This document shows, one piece after another, positions 8,004-38,643 of a stretch of DNA of 38,643 nucleotides (its first letter is position 1; every line of letters starts with the position of its first letter). The position numbers were made by a program, and so were the translations under genes. The notes beneath the pieces are model-generated. The model saw nothing but the letters and a program-made list of their open reading frames with translations, was not told where the DNA came from and did no database searches. Location: positions 1 to 38,643 of the IMG/VR virus record IMGVR_UViG_3300046009_007501; one strand, given 5' to 3'. This DNA comes from a virus.

Positions 8004-8024
8004 AAATATAAATAAAAATTAAAA

Positions 8025-11471: not shown

Positions 11472-12044
11472 ATGGCAGGATTACCACATTATACGAGTTC
11501 TAAGGCTTCGGTTAACAAATTCGAACCGATTTTCCTCAACCAGTTTGAGGTTACCATTACTCCGCCAACGGCTATTCCAGTACAAGCTGGAAACCCTGGC
11601 GCAGCTAATATATTATTGGAACAAGTTACTAGAGTATCAGGTCTTCAAGTAGATCAAAATGCTGGAGAGATCACACAGCAATACAAATTTGCTAAAAGAT
11701 ACTACTCTGGTGCTGCTCCTCAAAGAACTGGTTTAGATGTTGACATAGAATTTGAAATTAACCTTAACGAGAATAATTCGATGTATGTTTTTAAAACATT
11801 ACGTCAATGGTCTGATTTAATTTACAATCCTCTTACTGGGGCAATGGGACTTAAGAAAGACTATACAGGTAATATACTCGTTAACGTTTTCAACAAACAA
11901 GGAGATATCTTTAGAAAAATAAACCTAAGAGATTGTTTCCCAATGACTCCAATACCAGAAATGGCATTAAACTACACACAAACTTCAATCTACAAATTGA
12001 ATTTAACTTGGGCAGTTGACTATTTCGACGACGTATTTATATAA
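11472..12044 (+). CDS. gp19: Tail tube protein gp19-like, copy 1
   Basis: This 190-aa protein has the tail-tube signature: an N-terminal FLNQFEVTITPP strand, VSGLQVDQ, the tube hairpin, LRQWSDLIYNPLTG, and a closing WAVDYFDDVFI. T4 gp19 (163 aa) stacks as hexamers to form the inner tube through which DNA passes, surrounded by gp18. It lies directly after the sheath gene. The next gene, 11 bases on, is a clear paralog with the same start (MAGLPH), the same RQWSDLIYNPLTGA block and the same YF(D/E)DVF end. Confidence 0.95.
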   Translation: MAGLPHYTSSKASVNKFEPIFLNQFEVTITPPTAIPVQAGNPGAANILLEQVTRVSGLQVDQNAGEITQQYKFAKRYYSGAAPQRTGLDVDIEFEINLNENNSMYVFKTLRQWSDLIYNPLTGAMGLKKDYTGNILVNVFNKQGDIFRKINLRDCFPMTPIPEMALNYTQTSIYKLNLTWAVDYFDDVFI

Positions 12045-12055
12045 AAAAATAAAAA

Positions 12056-12634
12056 ATGGCAGGATTACCACATTTTACAGCATCAAAAGCAGCAGTACAA
12101 TTATACGAACCGGTATATCTTAACCAGTTTGAGGTTATAATACAGCCTCCAGTTGGTGTTGCTTTAGAACAAGGGAACGGAGGAAGAACTCTTTTAGTAG
12201 AAAACGTGCTTTCAGTTTCTGGATTAGCAGTTGATAAAAACCCAGGTATAGCGGAGCAAAGATATAAATTCGCTAGAAGAAGATACGCTGCAGGTGCAGT
12301 TGATGATACTGGTGTTAAGGTTAGGATTGAATTTGAAACAAACCTTAACGACAACAATAGCAACTATGTATTTAAGGCATTAAGACAGTGGTCAGATTTA
12401 ATATACAACCCTCTAACAGGAGCAACTGGTATTAAATCAACTTACGCAGGAGGAACTTATATACTAATTTCTATATTCAATAAACAAGGAGACGTTTTCA
12501 GAAGAATTAAATTAGTAAACTGCTTCCCCGTAGATCAGATTAAATCACTGGATTTGGATTATACTAACGGTACAACACCTTATAAGATCCCACTATCTTT
12601 TAGAGCGGATTATTTCGAAGACGTTTTTAATTAA
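12056..12634 (+). CDS. gp19: Tail tube protein gp19-like, copy 2
   Basis: The 192-aa product is a second tail-tube protein. It shares with copy 1 the segments MAGLPH, YLNQFEV, VSGLAVDKN, ALRQWSDLIYNPLTGA and DYFEDVFN, but the loops between them have diverged, so this is not a recent duplication. Both copies keep the full fold and intact ends, which argues against a decaying duplicate. It could form a distinct part of the tube (for example the distal end), a mixed tube, or a baseplate-proximal ring. It is preceded by AAATAAAAA without a Shine-Dalgarno sequence and followed by an intrinsic terminator, which closes the sheath-tube operon. Confidence 0.93.
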   Translation: MAGLPHFTASKAAVQLYEPVYLNQFEVIIQPPVGVALEQGNGGRTLLVENVLSVSGLAVDKNPGIAEQRYKFARRRYAAGAVDDTGVKVRIEFETNLNDNNSNYVFKALRQWSDLIYNPLTGATGIKSTYAGGTYILISIFNKQGDVFRRIKLVNCFPVDQIKSLDLDYTNGTTPYKIPLSFRADYFEDVFN

Positions 12635-14212: not shown

Positions 14213-14222
14213 TATATAAATA
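14213..14222 (+). promoter_or_regulatory. Late-promoter candidate with exact T4 late box
   Basis: TATATAAATA directly follows the terminator and contains the T4 late consensus TATAAATA (14215-14222). It would drive the 578-aa gene that starts 10 bases later, again with almost no leader. Confidence 0.6.
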
Positions 14223-14231
14223 AAAAATATT

Positions 14232-15968
14232 TTGGCAGGAGAAACAGGAACACAAGGAGCAGCAGGATCGGAATTTCCGGTTTTCAAATCATCCGAAGGA
14301 GCTTTCGATAGAGCAAAGTACGAGGAGCAAGATAAGGCAAGGATAGTATCAGATGGAATAACTGCGCGTTCTACTGGAAAAGAAATAGACGAGGATCTAG
14401 TAAAGAAAAAAAAATCAGCGGATCAAGTTATAAAAGAAGCTAATAAATTTTACGACGATTCATTTCAAAAAAACGTAAAAGGATTAGATCCTGCTTATGA
14501 TCCAAGCCTTATCTATTATTCAGAAGCTTATTCAGATGGAGGATTAAATAAAAACAAAATACGAAGGAAATTAGAAAAAGGAGAAACTATAGACGGCAAG
14601 GAGATTTTTGAAATGTCTAAGCAAGCTGCCGAAAATAAAATAAGTAATGCCAAGGTTCTTAAAGATGGTAGAGTTACTGATATAGTAGAAAATTTAGGCT
14701 TAAAAGATGTAAAGCAATTAGATCTATACGAGGATGTAAAAAGTGATTTTGATAGTAAGATAAAGGACGAAAAAATTAAATTTGAGCCACTTCTTGATAA
14801 TTTTGCTAAGGTGCTACACTATTTTAGTGTTAAGGATTCATTTATGGCTAGTCAATATGCTCCTATTTTATATACTCCTGAAAATATGGCTATAATTTCT
14901 GCTTTAGGAAAAGTTCTAGAAGCTGAAGGATTTACCAATGAGAGTGTTACTAAAATGGCAAAAGCATATGATGATAACATAAAAAAGCTAATAGAAAAAA
15001 AAGAAGGAAAAAAAGCTGAGGATATAATAAAAGAAGCTGGAGAAGAGGCAAAGAAAGAAGGAGAAGCTAAAGTAGAAGAGCAAAAATTAGATGAGAAAAG
15101 CACACCAGCTCCTACCGGTCCTACCGGAGAAGGTGCTAAGCCATTAGAGGGAACACAAGAGACTCAAACGGGGGTAACAGGAGCATCTACAACAGCATCC
15201 ACTACTACTACAACAGAAACATTAACAACTGTAACATCAACTACCGGTCCTACCGGTCCTACCGGGTCACAAGAGCCATCAAAAGTTGAAGGAGCAAAAA
15301 CATCAACAACTGGTACAACTGGATCTAAACCGGTAACATCATCAGACGTTACAAAAAGACAAGAGGACCTATTATCATCTCTATTTGGTATAAAGTTCGC
15401 AGAATCTGGTACTGGTGCAACAGGACCAACAGGGGGTACCGAAACTACACCGAAAAAAAAGAAAGAGGAAACTACTCTAGAAAAAAAGGTAGAGGAGAAA
15501 AAAACCGAAACGGCTCAAAACACGACAACCACACCGACTACATCGACCACAGAGACCAAGCTGGAGGAGAAAATTTCATCAAATAATCAAACAGAAAATG
15601 AAACTTCCTCAGTAAATACTCCTATAAAAGAAACAGAACAACAAAACTTATCTAGTGTAATATCTCCAGAAAAAGAGAGCACTGATATGGATAAAAATAA
15701 TACAGAGGGAAATAAGGGAACAACAACTACAACAACAGAGACAAAAACAACAGAGACAAAAACTGAGGGAGGAGAAGGGGGTACATCATCCGCATCTAGT
15801 TTAGAAACAAATAAAACATCAGAGGATAAAGCAGCAACGGAGGAAAAACAAAAGGCTGATAAGGAAATGGCAGACGACATAAAATCTATGGTAAATCTGC
15901 TTACTCAATTAAACAGCACTTTACAAAATCCTCTTATGGTTATTCCAAACGGAAAAAAATTCAACTAG
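14232..15968 (+). CDS. Thr/Glu-rich virion protein candidate with collagen-like motifs
   Basis: This 578-aa protein starts with TTG (TTG GCA GGA, matching the ATG GCA GGA starts of the tube genes) after an A-rich leader. Residues 1-285 are helical and charged, with one conserved-looking block (LHYFSVKDSFMASQYAP). Residues 286-540 are low-complexity, dominated by Thr, Glu, Lys and Ser with scattered GPTG triplets, and are surely disordered. A short hydrophobic helix (MADDIKSMVNLLTQL) and the end NPLMVIPNGKKFN close it. It lies alone between a terminator and the next operon. Length close to the T4 tape measure gp29 (590 aa) and the baseplate context are suggestive, but the composition is not typical, so I leave the function open. 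Confidence 0.75.
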   Translation: MAGETGTQGAAGSEFPVFKSSEGAFDRAKYEEQDKARIVSDGITARSTGKEIDEDLVKKKKSADQVIKEANKFYDDSFQKNVKGLDPAYDPSLIYYSEAYSDGGLNKNKIRRKLEKGETIDGKEIFEMSKQAAENKISNAKVLKDGRVTDIVENLGLKDVKQLDLYEDVKSDFDSKIKDEKIKFEPLLDNFAKVLHYFSVKDSFMASQYAPILYTPENMAIISALGKVLEAEGFTNESVTKMAKAYDDNIKKLIEKKEGKKAEDIIKEAGEEAKKEGEAKVEEQKLDEKSTPAPTGPTGEGAKPLEGTQETQTGVTGASTTASTTTTTETLTTVTSTTGPTGPTGSQEPSKVEGAKTSTTGTTGSKPVTSSDVTKRQEDLLSSLFGIKFAESGTGATGPTGGTETTPKKKKEETTLEKKVEEKKTETAQNTTTTPTTSTTETKLEEKISSNNQTENETSSVNTPIKETEQQNLSSVISPEKESTDMDKNNTEGNKGTTTTTTETKTTETKTEGGEGGTSSASSLETNKTSEDKAATEEKQKADKEMADDIKSMVNLLTQLNSTLQNPLMVIPNGKKFN

Positions 15969-19431: not shown

Positions 19432-20652
19432 ATGAAAAAGAAATTATTACCCTGGATAATCGCTTTATCTGCACTTACAGTTTCTGGATCTGCAGCTTTT
19501 TATTCTGTATCTGGACTAGGAAAAATGTTTGCCGGTGCAGCATTACAAGTAATGATATTAGCAGGAAGCCTAGAATTTGCTAAATTAGTAACAGCTTCTT
19601 TACTCTACCAATATTGGAAAAAGCTTAATTTGGGATTAAAGCTTTATCTTTCAATAGCAACCTTAATACTGATAGTAATAACATCTGCAGGGATTTATGG
19701 ATTTTTATCCTCAGCTTACCAAGAAACATCGTTCAAGGTGCAAAACCAGGATAAGAATATCGAGATTCTAGATAAAAATATATCCATAATACAAGGAGAG
19801 ATAAAGAATTTTGAATCTCAGGTAAAACAAAAGAACGATAGGATAATACAGCTAACTTCTATAAGAACAAATCTTCAATCAACACAAGATGTATTGATAG
19901 AAAAATCAAAGTCTACTAATGCAGTTAGACAACAGATAAAGGATGTCGATTCGGAGATAAAAAGAATGGATTCGGAGGTTTCTGTATTAAATGATTCCAT
20001 ATCTTCAAAAAACACAAGAATATCTTCCATAGAGAAACAAAAACTAGATGTTTCCTCAGATTCAGATCTAGCTAGGGAAGTTGGCCCTTTAAAATATATT
20101 GCTGAGCTAACAGGAAAAGATATAGACTCCGTGGTTAACTGGTACATAATCGTGCTGATGCTAGTTTTTGACCCTTTAGCCATTGCATTAGTAATAGCAG
20201 CAAATTTTGCTTTTGAAATAAATGAGCCAAAAAAAGAAGAAGAAATGGAAGAAAAAGAAAATAAAAAGCCTGGTAAAATTAAATCACTATGGAATAGAAT
20301 AACTTTGTTTAATAAAAAAAAAGAAACATTAAACAAAACAGAAGGAACATCCGTGTCACCTAACCAGGAAGTATCTATTTTGTTTAAGGAAAATCCAGAA
20401 ACATTAAACAAAGAGGAAATACCAGCTGAATACGATCAATTGGTACAGGAAGAACCTAATAATAATATCGAAGAAAAAGAATCAAATCCAGAATCGAATA
20501 ACAATAAAAAAGAGGATACATATAGTAAAGATACACCAACAAAATTTGATAAATCACAAAGGGAAAGATTTAGAGGAAATCCTGATTCAATGGAATCTCG
20601 AAAAAGCTTTAGAAATAACCCAGGAGATGAGAATCCAATTAATTTAAGATGA
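19432..20652 (+). CDS. Membrane protein with long coiled coil
   Basis: The 406-aa product starts MKKKLLPWIIALSALTVSG and has about three hydrophobic segments in its first 95 residues. A long coiled coil follows (about 100-215, heptad-like, with IEILDKNISIIQGEIKNFES), then another membrane segment (about 236-262, WYIIVLMLVFDPLAIALVIA). The last 140 residues are Lys/Glu/Asn/Pro-rich and disordered. Proteins with the DPLAIALV-type segment after a coiled coil occur in other large phages, where their role is not known to me. The layout suggests a cell-envelope anchor with a cytoplasmic tail. The next gene starts within its last codons. Confidence 0.85.
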   Translation: MKKKLLPWIIALSALTVSGSAAFYSVSGLGKMFAGAALQVMILAGSLEFAKLVTASLLYQYWKKLNLGLKLYLSIATLILIVITSAGIYGFLSSAYQETSFKVQNQDKNIEILDKNISIIQGEIKNFESQVKQKNDRIIQLTSIRTNLQSTQDVLIEKSKSTNAVRQQIKDVDSEIKRMDSEVSVLNDSISSKNTRISSIEKQKLDVSSDSDLAREVGPLKYIAELTGKDIDSVVNWYIIVLMLVFDPLAIALVIAANFAFEINEPKKEEEMEEKENKKPGKIKSLWNRITLFNKKKETLNKTEGTSVSPNQEVSILFKENPETLNKEEIPAEYDQLVQEEPNNNIEEKESNPESNNNKKEDTYSKDTPTKFDKSQRERFRGNPDSMESRKSFRNNPGDENPINLR

Positions 20653-21774: not shown

Positions 21775-24090
21775 ATGGAAAAAAATATTAATCCAGAGAT
21801 CAACAGATTAAATATGGAGACTTCTAAGAATGCCGCAGACTCCTTAAGAGAATGGGCTGGACTAGGATCAGAAAAGAAACCTGTTGCTTCTTCTTTCCTA
21901 AACGGTTCTACCGCTCAAATGTTAAAAGAGTCACAAATGCCAGATTTATCTACTGGTGCAAAAAATGGTGTTTCTTTTAGTTTTGGACTTGTTAATACAG
22001 TATCTGCATTAAAAAATAGCTCAGTAGGAGAACTTCCTGCTGGTAGAATCCTATTAGATAAATACGAGCATTTATTACTAGGAAAAGGTATTTCTGAAGC
22101 ATTTGTTCTTGAATCTTTTATAAACGACCTTAGACCATTTTCTTGGGAAAATTCAGTAGTGCCCGTTTTAGAGACATTAAATAGAACTTTAGAAAACAGA
22201 AGAAGAGAGGTAGAAGTTCTTAAGGCTTACGAGACTATGAAGAACGCTCCAGGAAAAGAGCTTTTTTCTGATGCTACAGAACAAATGAAAAATTGGTTAG
22301 TATCTGAAACAAAATCATCAGATACATTAATTCACGGTCTTAAAAGATTCGGATTTAACCCAATGGTAAGAAATTTAGTTAGCTTCCTTTCGATGTACGA
22401 AAACGAGAACAGTGGGAAATTCAATGTAGGTTTCGATAATAACGTATGTAAAATAGAGAATGTATATTCACCTATTTACGTTAACGAAAACGAGACTATG
22501 TTCTATTCATCCGGTAAATTCTTAAAGTTAAATCAGGATAACGGAATTATTCAAGAATGCAACATGGACGAAGTCCCTGCAGAACTACAAGATCAAGCTG
22601 CTATAGTTAGTGATAGAGACGTAAAAATCGATAATAATAAAATATCATTAAACATCGGTAATAATAAGGTAGAGATCGTATTTACTAATGAATCTAAGGA
22701 GGTTTATATCGATGGTAAAAGAATAAACGAAAGTGATTTACCAGTTGCTGTTAGTGTTACTACTAATAACCTTCTAGAAGGTTCTAATAATAGAGTAGCT
22801 AAAGCAGTTTTTGTTGCTAAGAACGCTGAAGAAATAGTAGATATCGATTTCGGTAAGAAAATAAGATCTAAAGTATACGAAAACGTAGAGGTTAACATCT
22901 TTAAAACTGATAATGCTATTTATGTACAAACAGTTAATCCAGCAATGAGATTAAATAAGATGTATGAAGCAAATGCAACCCAAGCTATTTCGATAATTAA
23001 AGATTTTATTAAATACGATATTTCTGAGTCATTAACAGAATTCTTAGAAGGAGAACAAGCTTTCCTAAGTGTTATGAAAAATGACAAGAACGAGATCGTT
23101 AAAAACATCGAAATTCTAGAAGGAGAATTAAGAAAACTAGACGTTGTTAAAGAAAGCAATCCTTTATTAGCTAATTCCCAAGAACTTATTGCTTTAGAGG
23201 AGAGCATCGAAAATGAAATCGATAATCTTAAAGATAGATGGAACGAGATAAACGTTGAGATTTCAAGATTCGAAAATAGAGTTAAAGAAGTTCCTTCAGT
23301 AAATGAGGATCTAGGATATCCTATCGATACTGAAGTAAGAATCAAAAGAAACGGAAACAAGGGAAGAGTAATAGGAGTTGATGGAAATTCTAAAACTTAC
23401 ACTATCCTTTTTAAAGAAGGTAAAACTGGTGAATACTTTTTCTCTGACGTAGAAGATATCGATGATGAAGTTGACAGATACGACATTAAAGCTCCGGATC
23501 TTGATATAGAATACACAAACGAATCTAATCAGAACTTTGCAAATGCTCCTGGAAATAGAGGTGGTTCACATAGAGATCCTAGAATCGAAAGTTTATCTAA
23601 AAAACACATGGCACAAGCTCCTGATAAAAAAACAGGATCATCTGCTAAGTTTATAAACAACGAAAAAGGAACTATGGCAGGAACACCTAAGAGCGGTAAA
23701 TCTGCACCTTTAACAGGAAGAGGAGTTAATGCTAAATCTGCTAATATGGCTGATCTTCATAGTAAAGGAAAAGGAGGATCTGGGAAAAAGTTTATTGACG
23801 GCTTAGATAATCTTGATTTAGCTAAAGCACCTAGTGCATCTATTAAAGGATCAGGCAAATTCATACAAGATCTTAAAAATATGAATCTGTCCCTGAAAGA
23901 GAGTCAAAAAAATTCTCACGTAGAAAAAGCACCTAAAGGAAAAACAGAAAAGCCTAAAAAATTTATCGAGGACGAAGACGATTTTAATCTAGCTGATGCT
24001 CACGGAAACAGCAAGAAAAACGGAAAAAGATTTGCAGAAAGCGACAAAGTAGCAAATCTATCTTCTGCTCCCAAGACAAAAAAAAAGTAA
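21775..24090 (+). CDS. Large virion-associated protein candidate with C-terminal KFI repeats; likely -1 frameshift at its end
   Basis: The 771-aa product has a helical N-terminal half (1-240), a beta-rich domain (about 240-400), a coiled coil (about 440-520), an SH3/KOW-like segment (YPIDTEVRIKRNGNKGRVIG), and a basic, probably disordered tail from residue about 600. The tail contains about six degenerate units of 20-27 residues with core K-F-I...N-L...A-P (KKFIDGLDNLDLAKAP is the clearest). The gene ends ACA-A9-G-TAA, a classical A AAA AAG slippery site, and the -1 frame stays open for 83 more codons. It lies just before the gp55-gp4-portal block under a late-type promoter, so a head-internal or scaffold role is plausible but unproven. 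Confidence 0.82.
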   Translation: MEKNINPEINRLNMETSKNAADSLREWAGLGSEKKPVASSFLNGSTAQMLKESQMPDLSTGAKNGVSFSFGLVNTVSALKNSSVGELPAGRILLDKYEHLLLGKGISEAFVLESFINDLRPFSWENSVVPVLETLNRTLENRRREVEVLKAYETMKNAPGKELFSDATEQMKNWLVSETKSSDTLIHGLKRFGFNPMVRNLVSFLSMYENENSGKFNVGFDNNVCKIENVYSPIYVNENETMFYSSGKFLKLNQDNGIIQECNMDEVPAELQDQAAIVSDRDVKIDNNKISLNIGNNKVEIVFTNESKEVYIDGKRINESDLPVAVSVTTNNLLEGSNNRVAKAVFVAKNAEEIVDIDFGKKIRSKVYENVEVNIFKTDNAIYVQTVNPAMRLNKMYEANATQAISIIKDFIKYDISESLTEFLEGEQAFLSVMKNDKNEIVKNIEILEGELRKLDVVKESNPLLANSQELIALEESIENEIDNLKDRWNEINVEISRFENRVKEVPSVNEDLGYPIDTEVRIKRNGNKGRVIGVDGNSKTYTILFKEGKTGEYFFSDVEDIDDEVDRYDIKAPDLDIEYTNESNQNFANAPGNRGGSHRDPRIESLSKKHMAQAPDKKTGSSAKFINNEKGTMAGTPKSGKSAPLTGRGVNAKSANMADLHSKGKGGSGKKFIDGLDNLDLAKAPSASIKGSGKFIQDLKNMNLSLKESQKNSHVEKAPKGKTEKPKKFIEDEDDFNLADAHGNSKKNGKRFAESDKVANLSSAPKTKKK
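24078..24087 (+). other. Candidate -1 ribosomal frameshift site (A AAA AAG)
   Basis: Nine A then G precede the TAA stop (24088-24090) of the 771-aa frame. In that frame the heptamer 24081-24087 reads A AAA AAG, the same slippery sequence as E. coli dnaX. A -1 slip continues GTA AAT ACT into a frame open to 24338. Confidence 0.7.
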
Positions 24091-24338
24091 ATACTACATC
24101 ATTAATTGAGTCTATCGCCAAAGACCCAGACGAGGGAATTGGCAATAGACTCAATTTTGTTTTAGACGATTTAAAAAATTGTTTAGAAAAAGTAAAAGAA
24201 TTAGAAACTTCTAGCGTGGAAAACGGTAGAATAGGTATAGACATAATTAAGAATTCGAGGAAAAATTTGGAAGAATTAAGGGTAGATTTAGAAAAACAGA
24301 TAGAGAAACTACAAAATAATATTCCAGACCAAGAATGA
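24087..24338 (+). CDS. -1 frame C-terminal extension of the 771-aa protein (83 codons)
   Basis: This frame has no ATG, GTG or TTG before a GTG at 24216, yet it encodes a coherent, charged helical segment (LNFVLDDLKNCLEKVKELE, LEELRVDLEKQIEKLQ). Its TGA (24336-24338) overlaps the ATG of the gp55 gene as ATGA, the usual coupling arrangement in this genome. Both facts indicate that ribosomes translate it, most simply by -1 slippage at 24081-24087, giving an 854-aa fusion. A miscalled A in the nine-base homopolymer would produce the same picture: with ten A the two frames would be one gene. Confidence 0.65.
   Translation, partial: VNTTSLIESIAKDPDEGIGNRLNFVLDDLKNCLEKVKELETSSVENGRIGIDIIKNSRKNLEELRVDLEKQIEKLQNNIPDQE
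24104..24156 (+). promoter_or_regulatory. Long hairpin downstream of the slippery site
   Basis: The arm 24104-24121 pairs with 24139-24156 over 18 positions with one C-A mismatch, and CCC/GGG inside the loop adds three more pairs. It starts 16 bases after the slippery heptamer. Because TTTTGTTTT follows the right arm, it may also act as, or instead be, a transcription terminator. Confidence 0.75.
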
Positions 24339-24691
24339 TATATGTAAAAAACAAAGAGTTAAAAAGAGCTCTTCTCGAAAGCAAAGAAAAAGGACAACTT
24401 ACAGACGAGACCGTAAAAATGTTTACTCTAATAGTAAACGGTATGTCCAAAACACACTCCTATAGAGATAACGAAGATAGAGAAGATTGCATATCTTCCG
24501 GATTAGAAGATCTTGTAAAGTATTGGAACAGATATGATCCAGAAAAATCCGACAATCCGTTTGCATTCATATCTCAAATAGCACACAATGGGATGAAAAA
24601 GGGGTGGAAAAAAATACACCCACCTAAGTCACCTAAAACTATACCTTTCTCCAGAATAGTAAAAGAAGAGAATTCCAATTATAATGTATAG
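24335..24691 (+). CDS. gp55: Late-transcription sigma factor, gp55-like
   Basis: The 118-aa product matches the T4 gp55 pattern: a YVKNKELKRALLE start, a helix ending NGMSK, then CISSGLEDLVKYWNRYDP, the NPFAFISQIAHNGMKKGWKK region-2 helix, and a short tail. T4 gp55 (185 aa) is a minimal sigma that directs host polymerase to TATAAATA late promoters when linked to the sliding clamp through its C-terminus. Here the last residues (FSRIVKEENSNYNV) are shorter and lack an obvious acidic clamp peptide. Its ATG overlaps the stop of the -1 extension frame. The TATATA boxes before virion genes in this window are its likely targets. Confidence 0.82.
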   Translation: MIYVKNKELKRALLESKEKGQLTDETVKMFTLIVNGMSKTHSYRDNEDREDCISSGLEDLVKYWNRYDPEKSDNPFAFISQIAHNGMKKGWKKIHPPKSPKTIPFSRIVKEENSNYNV

Positions 24692-25179: not shown

Positions 25180-25772
25180 TAGATCCATTTAAAAAAAGAT
25201 TTGAAGAATATAAACTTTCTATATCCGGACTTTCCTCACCACAGGAAGAATCTTTCATGTTTTGGTTTAATAAATTCGTAAATAAAAACTCCCAATTCAA
25301 TCCTCTAGATTTTTTATCAGGGAAAGTTTATTCGTTTGAATACAACGATAAACTAGAAGGAGGTAAGAAATTTATAAATAAAAGACCTGTCGTGTTTTTT
25401 ACAGGATACGACAACTATGAGAGAAAAAATATATTTAGCGGATTAGATCTAATACTAATACCACCTATTTTCAGAATGTATTTTTTTGAAAGAGTACAAA
25501 GCGTTTTCCAAGATCAGATTGAAAGAAATATAAGAAAAGATGAAAATGGGGAGGGAAGAGATCAATCTCCTTTAAAAACTGATTATCAAATAATGGAGTC
25601 CATATTAAAAGGAATCCCATATAAGCACTCATATAGATCTTGGGATTTAAAAAAAGTTAGGGGCGTTGTGGAAATTCCTTTTGAAGATTGGACTAGAATA
25701 GTATATCTTGATACTAGGTCAATTGAAGGGACCCAGCTTATTGAGATATATAATAAAAATTCACAAGTCTAA
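25176..25772 (+). CDS. Unknown protein between gp4 and portal
   Basis: The 198-aa product overlaps the gp4 stop (ATGA) and shares one base with the portal start (TAATG), so it is embedded in a head-assembly operon. Visible features are a helical N-terminus, a strand GKVYSFEYN, a KRPVVFFTGYDNY segment and GLDLILIPPIFRMYFF. T4-like phages of other hosts encode a similarly arranged protein (a Y-F-Y strand, then a PLVI strand, then a G-L-N/D motif before a Pro), whose function I do not know. Being coupled to gp4 and portal genes suggests a virion or assembly role. Confidence 0.82.
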   Translation: MIDPFKKRFEEYKLSISGLSSPQEESFMFWFNKFVNKNSQFNPLDFLSGKVYSFEYNDKLEGGKKFINKRPVVFFTGYDNYERKNIFSGLDLILIPPIFRMYFFERVQSVFQDQIERNIRKDENGEGRDQSPLKTDYQIMESILKGIPYKHSYRSWDLKKVRGVVEIPFEDWTRIVYLDTRSIEGTQLIEIYNKNSQV

Positions 25773-27391
25773 TGGCTGGATTGACCGACGAAAAAAAATC
25801 TTTTTTTAGCTCTATTATAGAGAACATAAAGAAAGTGGGCAGTTTTGGAATGGCATACGAAGATCTTGTCGTGAAAAACTCCCAGGCAGTTGGTATTACT
25901 GAAGCACAATTTCTACAAAAAGGAGGCATAAAAGACGAAGCTTTCTTATTTGGATTAAGGAGAGCAGATACAACAACCAAGCAATACATAGCTTATTTTG
26001 ATAAGGACTATAAAAACAAAAGACATTATCTTCAAGGATTTGCACAAAATCCCGAAATAGAGTTTATCTTAGATACTATATGTGACGAAACAATAGTTTA
26101 CGACGAAAAGAATTTCTGGGCTTATTTCTCATTCATGCAACACGATGATGTAGATGAGGCGGCATATGAGAAAGTACAGAAAAGATACAAAGAGGTCTAT
26201 AACCTGTTCGGATTTAATCAGGATATATCAGCATGGCATTTATTCAGAAAATTCCTAGTTGATGGTAATATAGCTTTTGAAATTGTATTTGATAAGAAGG
26301 GTAAAAATATAGTAGGATTTAAGGAATTAGATCCTTGGTCTTTAATTCCAACGGTAGAAGCACAACCAGATGGGTCATTTGCAGATATCTGGATACAGTA
26401 TCCGGATAATCCTGCACTTACTAGAAAGCTTTACGATTCTCAGATTATCTATATAAGTTACGCTAAAGGAGGCGGTACTGCAGCTAGAGTTAGCTATTGC
26501 GAAAGAATGATAAGATCATTTAACCTTCTTAGGATTATGGAGCACACTCGTATTATATGGAACGTTATGAACTCCTCATACAGGATGGCAATGACAGTTC
26601 CAATAGGTACTAGATCCCCGCAAAAAGCAAAACAAACGCTGGGTGAACTTATGTCAATATACAAAGAAGATATAAGATTAGATACAGATAGTGGAGAATT
26701 AAGTGTAGACGGAAGACCTAAGATACAATTCTTTAAAAACTATCTAATGCCATCATCCCCTAATGGTACACCAGATATACAACCTTTACCTGGTGGTGGT
26801 GATGCTACAGCATTCTCCGACACAACAGTACTTAAGTATTTTGCTAATAAACTTAGAATGGACTCTAAGATACCTGCTACCAGATTCGGAAGAGAAGAAT
26901 CCGGATCTGAGGGTACAATTACATTTACTGCGGAGGGTCTAGACCAAGAGGAAATAAGATTTGCTAAATTTATAAACAGATTAAGATCAATATACCAGGA
27001 GATATTAATGAAGCCTCTTTGGGTTCAGTTCTGTTTAGATTTTCCACACCTTAAAAAAGATTATATTATTAAATCTGAATTTGGTCTCGATTATGTTAAG
27101 GAAAATATATTTAGAGAGGCTAAAGAGATGGAGGTAATGACTGCGAGAAAGGATCAGGTGATTAAAATATCTGCTCTTATGAATTCGGCAGGCAAAAAAT
27201 ACTTCAGTATGGATTTCTTAGTTGATAGATTCCTAGGCATGAAAGGACAGGATCTAGTAGCTAATAAGAAAGCAAAAGAAAAAGCTGCAGAAGAGAAGAA
27301 GAAAGCAGAAGAGGCTGCTGGAGCTACAGGAGAAGCAGGAGCTACAGGGGAAGAAGGCGGAGCAGCTGGTGGAGACATGGGAGAAATTTAA
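25772..27391 (+). CDS. gp20: Portal protein gp20-like, copy 1
   Basis: The 539-aa product is a T4-type portal vertex protein (T4 gp20, 524 aa): an EFILDTICDETIVYDE helix near residue 100, VGFKELDPWSLIPT, IIYISYAKGGG, YCERMIRSFNLLRIMEHTRI, and AMTVPIGTRSPQKAKQTL, ending in the crown-helix region (YQEILMKPLWVQF). Twelve copies would form the ring through which DNA enters and to which the neck binds. The C-terminus carries a Lys/Ala/Glu helix and then a short GATGEAGATGEEGG collagen-like tail. The second portal gene starts six bases downstream. Confidence 0.95.
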   Translation: MAGLTDEKKSFFSSIIENIKKVGSFGMAYEDLVVKNSQAVGITEAQFLQKGGIKDEAFLFGLRRADTTTKQYIAYFDKDYKNKRHYLQGFAQNPEIEFILDTICDETIVYDEKNFWAYFSFMQHDDVDEAAYEKVQKRYKEVYNLFGFNQDISAWHLFRKFLVDGNIAFEIVFDKKGKNIVGFKELDPWSLIPTVEAQPDGSFADIWIQYPDNPALTRKLYDSQIIYISYAKGGGTAARVSYCERMIRSFNLLRIMEHTRIIWNVMNSSYRMAMTVPIGTRSPQKAKQTLGELMSIYKEDIRLDTDSGELSVDGRPKIQFFKNYLMPSSPNGTPDIQPLPGGGDATAFSDTTVLKYFANKLRMDSKIPATRFGREESGSEGTITFTAEGLDQEEIRFAKFINRLRSIYQEILMKPLWVQFCLDFPHLKKDYIIKSEFGLDYVKENIFREAKEMEVMTARKDQVIKISALMNSAGKKYFSMDFLVDRFLGMKGQDLVANKKAKEKAAEEKKKAEEAAGATGEAGATGEEGGAAGGDMGEI

Positions 27392-27397
27392 TAGATA

Positions 27398-29050
27398 ATG
27401 GCAGGATTTTTAGATAACTTAGGAAAAATTAACCCAAATATCTCCAGGATATTAAAGACCATTAGTGGTCTAGGGTCATTTGGTATGGAATACAAAGATA
27501 TGGTCATAGAAGATTCCATGGCTATAGGTGTTTCAGAAGCTAACATGAGAGAAAGATTCGGATTTACTGAATCTGATGAAGATTTTATCTATAGCATAGC
27601 CGCTCAGGATACTTCCAATAGAAAGTACATAGCTTATTTTGATAAGGATTACCCGTTTAAAAGAGATTTTCTTAGAACATTTGCTTTAAACTCCGAGATA
27701 GAGTATATTTTAGATACTATATGCGACGAGGCAGTAGTTTATGACGAGAAGAATTTCTTTTGTCATCCAGCTCTAATGAGCATGGATCTAAAGGACGATG
27801 TTGTAAAGTCAATGAGATCCAATTTTAGAAAATTATATGTTCTACACAACTTTGCAAACGGTCTTACTGCTTGGCAATATTTTAGACAATTAATTGTCGA
27901 AGGATTTTTAGCTTTCGAGATAATATACTCGAACGACGGTAAAGAGATCGTTGGATTCAAAGAACTTGATGCGGTAAGTTTAACTCCCGCAGTAGAGAGA
28001 AAGCCAGACGGTACAAGAGAAACTATATGGTGGCAATATTACGGAGAAACAACCAGACAAAGAAAACTTTTAGATGCACAGGTTATTTATATCTCTTACG
28101 CTAAAGCTAATGTTGTTTCAAGGGTTTCTTATACAGAAAGATTAATAAGATCATACAACTTATTAAAGATAATGGAGCATTCGAGAATAATATGGAATGT
28201 CATGAATGCCCAATATAGAATAAAAATGACAGTTCCTATCGGAAGTAAAGCTCCACAAAAAGCCAAAGAGACTTTAGGAGAGCTAATGTCAGTATATAAG
28301 GAGGATATAAAATTAGATACCACATCAGGTGAGCTTTCTATAAACGGTAGACCCGATATACAATTTTATAAGAATTATCTTTTTCCTCAACAAGGAGGAG
28401 AATCAGTAAAGATAGAAACATTAAATGCTCAAGGTCCTAACCTTAATATAATGGATTCTGTTGTTTATTTCTATAATAAACTAAGACAGGATTCAAAGAT
28501 ACCTTACAATAGATTCTCATCTCGATTTGGTGTTGGATCTAATAACGTTTTTAAAACTGCTGCTGATGGAGCAGAAAGAGACGAAGTTAGATTTGCTAAG
28601 TTTATAACACGACTTAGATCTATATTCCAGGAAATAATAGTTAAGCCACTATGGATTCAGATGTGTCTAGAATTTCCCGAACTTAAAAATGACGCTGAAT
28701 TTAGAAGCCAAATAGGAGTTAAATTCGAAAGTGATAATATGTTCGGTGAATCTAGAGAGATCGAACAGTTAATAAAGAAAATAGATTTCATAACAGCAAT
28801 GGGAGAAATAAAAGAAACTGTAAAGGAGGAAGAGGTTCAATATTTCGATCAGGACTTTATGATAGAAAGATGGCTGGATTTAAATTATGAAGATATTCAG
28901 CTTAACAAATCCTATATTAGAAAAGCCGAGGAGGAAGGTAAATCCGGAGCAACAGGAGCAACAGGAGCAACAGGAGCAGAGGCCGGAGGAGCTGAAGCTG
29001 GAGCAGCAACAGGAGCTGAAGGCGAAGGAGCAACAGGAGCGGCAGTTTAG
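27398..29050 (+). CDS. gp20: Portal protein gp20-like, copy 2
   Basis: The 550-aa product is a full-length paralog of the preceding portal. Shared blocks include FGMEYKDMV, YIAYFDKDYPFKRDFL, IEYILDTICDEAVVYDEKNF, GFKELDAVSLTP, SYTERLIRSYNLLKIMEHSR and TVPIGSKAPQKAKETLGELM, so both keep the clip, stem and wing. They differ in the N-terminus, the tunnel-loop region and the tail, which here is a longer (GAT)n-type tract (GATGATGATGAEAGG). Neither copy looks decayed. One ring of mixed subunits, two ring types, or stage-specific use are all possible. It is the last gene before the replication operon. Confidence 0.95.
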   Translation: MAGFLDNLGKINPNISRILKTISGLGSFGMEYKDMVIEDSMAIGVSEANMRERFGFTESDEDFIYSIAAQDTSNRKYIAYFDKDYPFKRDFLRTFALNSEIEYILDTICDEAVVYDEKNFFCHPALMSMDLKDDVVKSMRSNFRKLYVLHNFANGLTAWQYFRQLIVEGFLAFEIIYSNDGKEIVGFKELDAVSLTPAVERKPDGTRETIWWQYYGETTRQRKLLDAQVIYISYAKANVVSRVSYTERLIRSYNLLKIMEHSRIIWNVMNAQYRIKMTVPIGSKAPQKAKETLGELMSVYKEDIKLDTTSGELSINGRPDIQFYKNYLFPQQGGESVKIETLNAQGPNLNIMDSVVYFYNKLRQDSKIPYNRFSSRFGVGSNNVFKTAADGAERDEVRFAKFITRLRSIFQEIIVKPLWIQMCLEFPELKNDAEFRSQIGVKFESDNMFGESREIEQLIKKIDFITAMGEIKETVKEEEVQYFDQDFMIERWLDLNYEDIQLNKSYIRKAEEEGKSGATGATGATGAEAGGAEAGAATGAEGEGATGAAV

Positions 29051-37177: not shown

Positions 37178-38643
37178 ATGCCACAGATATCAGGATTACC
37201 AGTAACTATGATCGCCAGCGTTCAGCCCGGATCGGTTACTGTTAATAGCTATTATAATAACCCCTCTAGTGTTTGGAACGGATTCCCATCTAGCTTTAAT
37301 TGTACACTTAATTTAATAGCTACTCCAACATCGCAGGAACCGAATTTTACCTTCGATGCTAACGATCTTGCGGATGGTATGTGGCTGTTACAGCCAAATG
37401 GAAATGCCTTCTTAATAACTAATATTACAGTTATTAATAATCTGGAGGTTGATGTGACTCTAAGAGACATAGAGCTCTATAATTTAGTAAGTGACTATAC
37501 AGTATCAGGTAACAATTATCCAACCGAGGGGATCAACGGAATAACCTTCGAAGTATCTGAAGATGGAGCGCCAGTAACTGCATTAATAGCTACTGCTTTA
37601 GCACCGAATCTGGACGAGAATGGCTACTGGATCGATGATGCTTTAGCTAGATTCCAATACCGTAACATAGTTAAAGCTAGCTATACGAACGTTTTTTCTC
37701 CTAACCCAACATATACCGCATTTAGTGTAGGACAAGTCGTTTATTTGGACACTTATGGCGTATTTGATATAGTAGACACGACATCAATAGCTGAAGTAGA
37801 AAAAGCATTTGGTGTTGTAACTTCTATAAATGAACCAGAAGACGGAAATATTAATGTAAGACCCTTTGGTAGAATAGTAACTACACCTTTCTCTTTACCT
37901 GGAAGTATTGGAGAGGTCCTATATTTCGATAGCTCAGCAAGTCCCTCTTTTGTCACAAATGTTAAACCTACAGTAAATCCTATACCGGTTTACATTAAAA
38001 TAAATAATAATACAGCATCCTACTTATATCCAGCACAAGGAGGGGGAAGCTCTACTTCTGGTATAAGCGGAAGCTCTGGTACTAGTGGTACTAGCGGTAC
38101 TTCTGGTTCTTCGGGGATTAGCGGAACTAGTGGATCTTCGGGAACAAGTGGAACATCAGGAACTGATGGAACTAGTGGATCTTCAGGAACAAGCGGAACT
38201 GATGGAACCAGTGGATCTTCAGGAACAAGTGGAACTGACGGAACAAGCGGATCTTCAGGATCTTCAGGAACATCAGGATCTTCTGGAACTAGCGGAAATG
38301 ACGGAACTAGCGGATCCTCAGGAACATCAGGATCTTCAGGAACATCAGGATCTTCAGGAACTAGTGGATCTTCAGGAACTAGTGGAACCGACGGAACTAG
38401 TGGATCTTCAGGAACTAGCGGAACCGATGGAACTAGTGGAACCGACGGAACTAGTGGATCTTCAGGAACTAGCGGAACCGATGGAACTAGTGGATCTTCA
38501 GGAACTAGTGGATCTTCAGGAACAAGCGGAACTAGTGGATCTTCAGGAACTAGTGGATCTTCAGGAACTAGTGGATCTTCAGGAACATCAGGAACATCAG
38601 GATCTTCAGGAACTAGTGGAACTGATGGAACTAGTGGATCTTC
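37178..38643 (+). CDS. Second fibre protein with GTSGSSG repeats, 3' truncated
   Basis: The gene starts with ATG CCA CAG after an A-rich leader (AATAAAAAAAGAACAAAATTAG), and the frame is open to the window end (488 full codons). Residues 1-288 form a globular, beta-rich N-terminal region (MPQISGLPVTMIASVQ, then ANDLADGMWLLQPNG and GQVVYLDTYGVF), likely the virion-attachment part. From about residue 289 on, the sequence is Gly-x-y repeats built from GTS, GSS and GTD with no proline. Length, further repeats and the tip domain lie outside the window. It is preceded by the collagen-like fibre gene with a 58-base gap that holds no clear promoter. Confidence 0.88.
   Translation, partial: MPQISGLPVTMIASVQPGSVTVNSYYNNPSSVWNGFPSSFNCTLNLIATPTSQEPNFTFDANDLADGMWLLQPNGNAFLITNITVINNLEVDVTLRDIELYNLVSDYTVSGNNYPTEGINGITFEVSEDGAPVTALIATALAPNLDENGYWIDDALARFQYRNIVKASYTNVFSPNPTYTAFSVGQVVYLDTYGVFDIVDTTSIAEVEKAFGVVTSINEPEDGNINVRPFGRIVTTPFSLPGSIGEVLYFDSSASPSFVTNVKPTVNPIPVYIKINNNTASYLYPAQGGGSSTSGISGSSGTSGTSGTSGSSGISGTSGSSGTSGTSGTDGTSGSSGTSGTDGTSGSSGTSGTDGTSGSSGSSGTSGSSGTSGNDGTSGSSGTSGSSGTSGSSGTSGSSGTSGTDGTSGSSGTSGTDGTSGTDGTSGSSGTSGTDGTSGSSGTSGSSGTSGTSGSSGTSGSSGTSGSSGTSGTSGSSGTSGTDGTSGS
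38060..38643 (+). repeat. Proline-free Gly-Thr-Ser / Gly-Ser-Ser tandem repeat
   Basis: The DNA repeats units such as GGA ACT AGT and GGA TCT TCA in arrays with 9-, 18-, 27- and 36-base periods, giving many ACTAGT sites. At least several longer units (GGATCTTCAGGAACTAGT) are identical, so unlike the GPTG tract this one shows recent expansion. It continues past the window end. Confidence 0.95.

Follow-up and report, generated by a model that had tools for sequence, protein, structure and literature searches.

A conserved run of nine A's as a probable transcriptional slippage site giving a late protein of T4-like phages a second C-terminal form

The gene of a 771-residue protein in a virus fragment with a T4-like late module ends in a run of nine A's (A9) at which recoding of some kind almost certainly takes place, opening an 83-residue extension in the −1 frame. 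The extended form is probably made by transcriptional slippage that lengthens the run from A9 to A10. The window (the whole stretch of DNA analysed, 38,643 nucleotides or 38.6 kb) carries late genes for terminase, sheath, tube, gp55, a gp4-like head closure protein, a gp2-like end protector, portal and ligase. The nearest matches of its portal are in huge uncultured phages, Lak phages and Bacteroidetes myophages. The features discussed below are:

21775..24090, + strand: main ORF, 771 aa, uncharacterised family (ORF reading, homology, predicted structure)
24078..24086, + strand: putative A9 slip site (0 frame ACA AAA AAA AAG TAA; −1 frame AAA AAA AAA GTA)
24088..24090, + strand: 0-frame stop codon TAA directly 3′ of the slip site, ending the short 771-aa product
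24087..24338, + strand: −1 frame extension of 83 residues, VNTTSLIES...NNIPDQE, and TGA (purifying selection in frame)
24106..24154, + strand: 14-bp stem (24106–24119 with 24141–24154) inside the extension, conserved and covarying
24155..24163, + strand: T-rich tract TTTTGTTTT directly 3′ of the stem, kept in relatives (TTTTNTTTT)
24335..24691, + strand: gp55-like late sigma factor (profile match phrog_234, E 1.2e-16)

The 0 frame of the main ORF ends in ACA AAA AAA AAG TAA with the G at 24087, the first base of the extension, whose codons occupy 24087–24335 and are followed by TGA at 24336–24338. This stop overlaps the gp55 initiation codon (ATG at 24335) as ATGA. The −1 frame has its first start-type codon, GTG, at 24216, and in the relatives examined no start for the extension is conserved. 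An earlier note, made from the letters alone, had described a 771-aa frame ending in A AAA AAG TAA, a −1 frame open for 83 residues and free of ATG, GTG and TTG over 43 codons, the ATGA overlap, and a hairpin at 24104–24156; its coordinates were confirmed, the core of the hairpin being the 14-bp stem listed above. ELETSSVENGR and NLEELR are peptides predicted from the tail and KKVNTTSLIESIAK the one predicted across the junction.

Purifying selection acts on the extension in the −1 frame. Pairwise dN/dS over 552 pairs is 0.29 in this frame versus 0.85 and 1.52 in the other two, and the third codon position is the one that varies most. The programmed −1 extension that had been proposed is thus coding by dN/dS, lacks a start of its own and adjoins gp55. 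IMG/VR searches yielded relatives in large sets; the same arrangement is found in 36 near relatives (gp55 at least 77% identical) and, with the tail as tblastn query and no run of A required, in 68 distinct junctions with an extension, of which 67 have A9 and one has A10. A stop codon lies directly 3′ of the run in nearly all 68. This conservation reaches main proteins only ~30% identical, and it identifies the A run as part of a real genetic switch. The arrangement is kept in clade 1b (~40% identity), with a homologous tail that includes ELETSS, in clade 2a (~30% identity), with a tail of 56–58 residues that has AP repeats, and in clade 2b, with 50–55 residues; tail length across clades is ~50–85 residues. 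The comparison of junctions in related phages suggested by the earlier note revealed no lineage that starts the tail independently, and the version it had named as refuting, ten A's in one continuous gene, was not seen within the clade of the window. The tree, built from 58 rows with L104 left out, is consistent with the arrangement having arisen once, long ago, and having been lost in the L191/L230 lineage. L104 represents a second loss, in which A9 is gone, the tail is decayed and a clean terminator remains. Neither A9 nor tail is present in the homologues compared from LR756500 and Lak-A1. A search of bacterial and archaeal genomes found no homologue, hence no provirus context.

The main protein has a predicted structure (pLDDT 66) composed of a helical N-terminal part, a beta/alpha middle, a long coiled coil at ~421–501, a Tudor/SH3-like domain at ~515–565 and a C-terminus of disordered repeats with AP motifs. 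The clade-1 extension, folded alone, is predicted with low confidence (pLDDT 66) to form two helices in a helical hairpin; the clade-2 extensions add AP-type repeats. A fold search of the PDB matched only the Tudor/SH3-like domain (E ~0.04), a sequence search of the PDB gave no significant relative, and Pfam gave only sub-threshold MSSS-SH3 and coiled-coil matches. The BFVD fold search returned uncharacterised phage relatives only, including a protein of Tenacibaculum phage PTm1 (A0A5S9HXP5; Foldseek E 8.8e-16), for which no CDS of matching length was found in ~134 kb of genome annotation. From the gene neighbourhood one may guess at a late role in structure or assembly. Two adjacent full-length genes (25772–27391 and 27398–29050) both match portal family phrog_213 (E 3.8e-61 and 1.1e-58) and appear to encode a duplicated, diverged portal protein. 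The neighbours 11472–12044 and 12056–12634 likewise match one family, phrog_32623, and more weakly tail tube proteins; they appear to be a duplicated tail tube. Sequences resembling a T4 late promoter (TATAAATA) at 8007–8014 and 14215–14222 lie ~10–20 bases upstream of two start codons, that of the sheath gene and the TTG of ORF 14232, and T-rich hairpins between genes point to separate transcription units. A long GTSG/SSG-type codon repeat (GGAACTAGTGGATCTTCA...), apparently coding, occupies ~37900–38643 and runs off the window end.

Among 47 non-redundant genes the base after A9 is G in 39, C in 7 and A in one, so that the codon before the stop is AAG (39/47), AAC (7/47) or AAA (1/47); AAC is the codon throughout clade 2 and in two lineages of clade 1. 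The two Lys codons at the site are both AAA in 47 of 47 genes, as against 46% of the 355 other Lys-Lys pairs in the same genes and 39–60% at three other conserved Lys-Lys columns. Elsewhere in the gene, runs of at least eight A's number 10 versus 48.6 ± 5.0 expected, and runs of at least nine are absent versus 5.1 expected (43 genes, synonymous shuffles); the related rows are not independent, and these departures and that of the Lys codons are therefore overstated. The slip site runs against this gene-wide depletion. The conserved element thus appears to be the A9 run and not the heptamer A_AAA_AAG, although A_AAA_AAA is contained in every site, the AAC and AAA variants included. For the window as a whole, runs of at least nine A's are only mildly low (3 versus 5.9 expected). 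Two more A9 runs lie inside genes on the same strand, at 14406–14414 and 20314–20322, so A9 alone is not unique to the site; of these two, the one at 20314 is not conserved in the small number of homologous segments available. A control run at 25791 varies from A3 to A8 in homologues (local tblastn, where partial alignments bias the lengths, which are indicative only).

Two sister lineages read the tail in different ways. In L216, L217, L218 and L221, which form one haplotype in a distant lineage, CCCC replaces CTA after A9 and the tail is in frame, giving a single ORF of 816 aa with A9 kept; one added A would there give the short form instead. This fusion into one gene shows the tail to be part of the same polypeptide. 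In L214, sister of the L216 group, the register of A9 differs (GAA AAA AAA ACC) and the 0 frame closes further downstream; a −1 shift leads again into the tail. The run is present in both sisters at ~5015 (L214, tail shifted) and ~5292 (L216, tail in frame), and the pair appears to represent a natural switch in recoding; the register change is known from one lineage and the in-frame case from one haplotype.

The stem inside the extension is conserved as a structure. Its positions pair in 91.8% of cases versus at most 38% when slid, and double-sided changes number 35 versus 9.5 in shuffles, with compensatory exchanges U-A/C-G, G-C/A-U and A-U/G-C/U-A. In all 35 clade-1a forms the stem lies 16 or 19 nt from the stop codon, and TTTTNTTTT then follows it in nearly all of them. 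Clade 1b has a stem of different sequence at the same place with a T-rich stretch after it, the L041 clade an unrelated stem and T-rich stretch in the same position. Clade 2a has a stem ~100 nt into the tail, while the stem of clade 2b is a textbook terminator 3′ of the tail's stop; a conserved stem near the slip site is found in neither. In L191 and L104 a stem stands directly 3′ of the gene, without slippage. The element thus shifts place between clades and outlives A9 and the extension, which argues for a terminator and not a frameshift stimulator, and it is best read as an intrinsic terminator. A role as stimulator was rejected for this mobile position and for a distance of 16–19 nt, the usual spacing being 5–9 nt (3–14 nt are known; PMC5009743). 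The earlier note had allowed that the hairpin might be a terminator, and the covarying stem, the T tract and the stand-alone copies in L104, L191 and clade 2b bear this out. Rfam has no relevant family at the hairpin, and a simple terminator scan does not list it because the scan allows loops of 3–8 nt only.

In the mechanism we favour, RNA polymerase would sometimes slip on A9 and add one A. Ribosomes on a faithful A9 mRNA would stop at TAA and yield the 771-aa protein, while on an A10 mRNA they would read on in the −1 frame of the DNA and yield an 854-aa form with the 83-residue tail. The intrinsic terminator would then be embedded in tail-coding sequence, and in the window's clade translation of the extended form would deliver ribosomes to gp55 through the stop/start overlap. 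We infer that both forms are produced and used. On a run of nine A's the RNA polymerase of bacteria is known to slip efficiently in vivo, and A's are added in Thermus dnaX (PMC5009743); this slip length comes from other bacteria, and the polymerase of this phage's host may differ. One extra A in the transcript leads precisely into the −1 frame. Features expected of transcriptional slippage include an A run about nine long, conserved coding sequence reached only through an indel, and a run kept in whatever register and before whatever base and avoided elsewhere in the gene; these are seen here, and the decay of the tail in L104, where A9 was lost, was counted for this reading too. The varying next base, the two registers and the depletion of runs of at least eight A's elsewhere favour it over a dnaX-type site. 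The A9 of L216 may persist only through a recent fusion.

Instead, with a faithful polymerase, tRNA-Lys could slip before TAA at A_AAA_AAG or A_AAA_AAA, a dnaX-like −1 ribosomal frameshift that had been the default reading of the earlier note and that we regard as rather unlikely, though a serious candidate. A perfect A_AAA_AAG immediately precedes the stop codon in the window, as it does in 39 of the 47 non-redundant genes, and A_AAA_AAA is in every site, so ribosomal −1 slippage would also work; clade 1 has in addition a strong hairpin downstream. Antonov et al. take one constant shift direction among orthologues to point to ribosomal frameshifting (PMC3711429). Wherever a lineage has to change frame to reach the tail, the direction is −1 (in one lineage no shift is required), and the unfixed direction that would indicate transcriptional slippage is not observed; this rule serves for prediction and does not define the process. 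Ribosomes of E. coli, however, are much more prone to shift at A_AAA_AAG than at A_AAA_AAC or A_AAA_AAA (PMC5009743), which makes AAC in all of clade 2 and two clade-1 lineages, and AAA in one, an argument against a purely ribosomal site. Seven A's would be enough for the ribosome, yet nine are always kept, and L214 changed register. The hairpin is 16–19 nt off and mobile, with no conserved close stem in clades 2a and 2b, and a Shine-Dalgarno-like stimulator is absent in all but ~1 of 48 rows (judged by inspecting the 24 nt 5′ of the stop). What is conserved appears to be the run and not the heptamer, and we do not take ribosomal frameshifting as the default.

Explanations that dispense with recoding have very low probability. 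The tail could be a separate small gene, expressed from an internal start or by re-initiation; it adjoins the upstream stop and overlaps gp55 as many small phage genes do, but 43 codons free of ATG, GTG and TTG in the window, the lack of a conserved start in relatives, the strict A9 and the natural in-frame fusion of the L216 group led us to reject this origin. A homopolymer at the break could equally betray a sequencing or assembly error, or replication slippage (phase variation), in a gene that is truly continuous; against this, equally improbable, view A9 recurs in the 68 distinct junctions from many independent metagenomes with the stop next to it in nearly all, and the only A10 relative owes its tenth A to a G-to-A substitution, with which the two frames stay separate. 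Assembly error was rejected on this recurrence.

Slippage could, as an addition to the preferred transcriptional mechanism, act as an attenuation switch setting expression of the late sigma factor and the head genes downstream, a proposal we consider doubtful. On the A9 transcript the leading ribosome would stop 16 nt before the stem and transcription would tend to end; on the A10 transcript the ribosome would traverse the stem, prevent termination and reach gp55 through ATGA. The terminator-like stem that clades 1 and 2a carry within the extension and the ATGA overlap fit such a switch, for which Shigella spa13/spa32 offers a precedent (PMC5009743). Li et al. report that translation running close to a terminator strongly represses it: in E. 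coli its efficiency was 0.12 at 17 nt in one series and 0.8 at 18 nt in another, and one inserted G that brought the upstream stop from a distance of 28 bp to one of 5 bp lowered it from ~90% to <10% (PMC4824070). The 16/19-nt gap between stop and stem lies within the range where efficiency swings. However, the terminator of clade 2b follows the tail's stop and A9 and tail are kept all the same, so the switch is not the general reason for the site; gp55 starts ~60 nt away in clade 2a, and transcription-translation coupling in the host is assumed. The coupling of termination, frameshifting and gp55 suggested in the earlier note is thus possible in the window's clade at most. The combined proposal, a family-wide transcriptional slippage site giving two C-terminal forms and doubling as gp55 attenuator in this clade, is accordingly put forward as speculative and, taken as a whole, improbable; if the terminator coupling is true, slippage would be linked to late sigma factor expression.

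Annotation of these large T4-like phages misses the last 50–85 residues of a conserved late protein. The 68 junctions, together with an in-frame lineage that keeps A9, make the question of ribosome versus polymerase testable. Conserved recoding by polymerase slippage occurs in insertion elements, secretion genes, dnaX and RNA viruses. For phages the literature searched gave only single suspected cases, a methyltransferase of a Campylobacter phage (PMC2853527) and Acinetobacter prophage genes (PMC6095929).

Members of the protein family itself, recognised by tblastn (21–26% identity) or fold, occur in Lak phages, LR756500 and PTm1; LR756500 and Lak-A1 differ by having no A9 and no extension, and the PTm1 protein is shorter (442 aa). 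T7 gene 10 (10A/10B), lambda G/GT and Listeria phage PSA resemble the present case in producing two C-terminal forms of a late protein, and a downstream terminator takes part in frameshifting of T7 gene 10 (PMC5009743); these systems are ribosomal, the family is unrelated to them as far as tested, and here A9 alone is conserved. E. coli dnaX and IS elements share A_AAA_AAG with the window and most of clade 1, as well as a stem-loop downstream, whereas here the stem is too far or absent, clade 2 does not keep the heptamer and no Shine-Dalgarno-like sequence is found. In Shigella spa13/spa32 and mxiE a C-terminal extension made by slippage also overlaps the start of the next gene (PMC5009743); those are bacterial secretion genes with slippage shown experimentally, while ours is a phage gene followed by gp55 with a putative terminator in the extension. 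Thermus thermophilus dnaX has the same A9 run, with A's added and two C-terminal forms (PMC5009743, PMC1088944). There the DNA frame encodes the long form and slippage gives the short one; at the window's site, where slippage is deduced from sequence, the order would be reversed, and in the L216 lineage, whose DNA frame encodes the long form, the Thermus-like arrangement is found.
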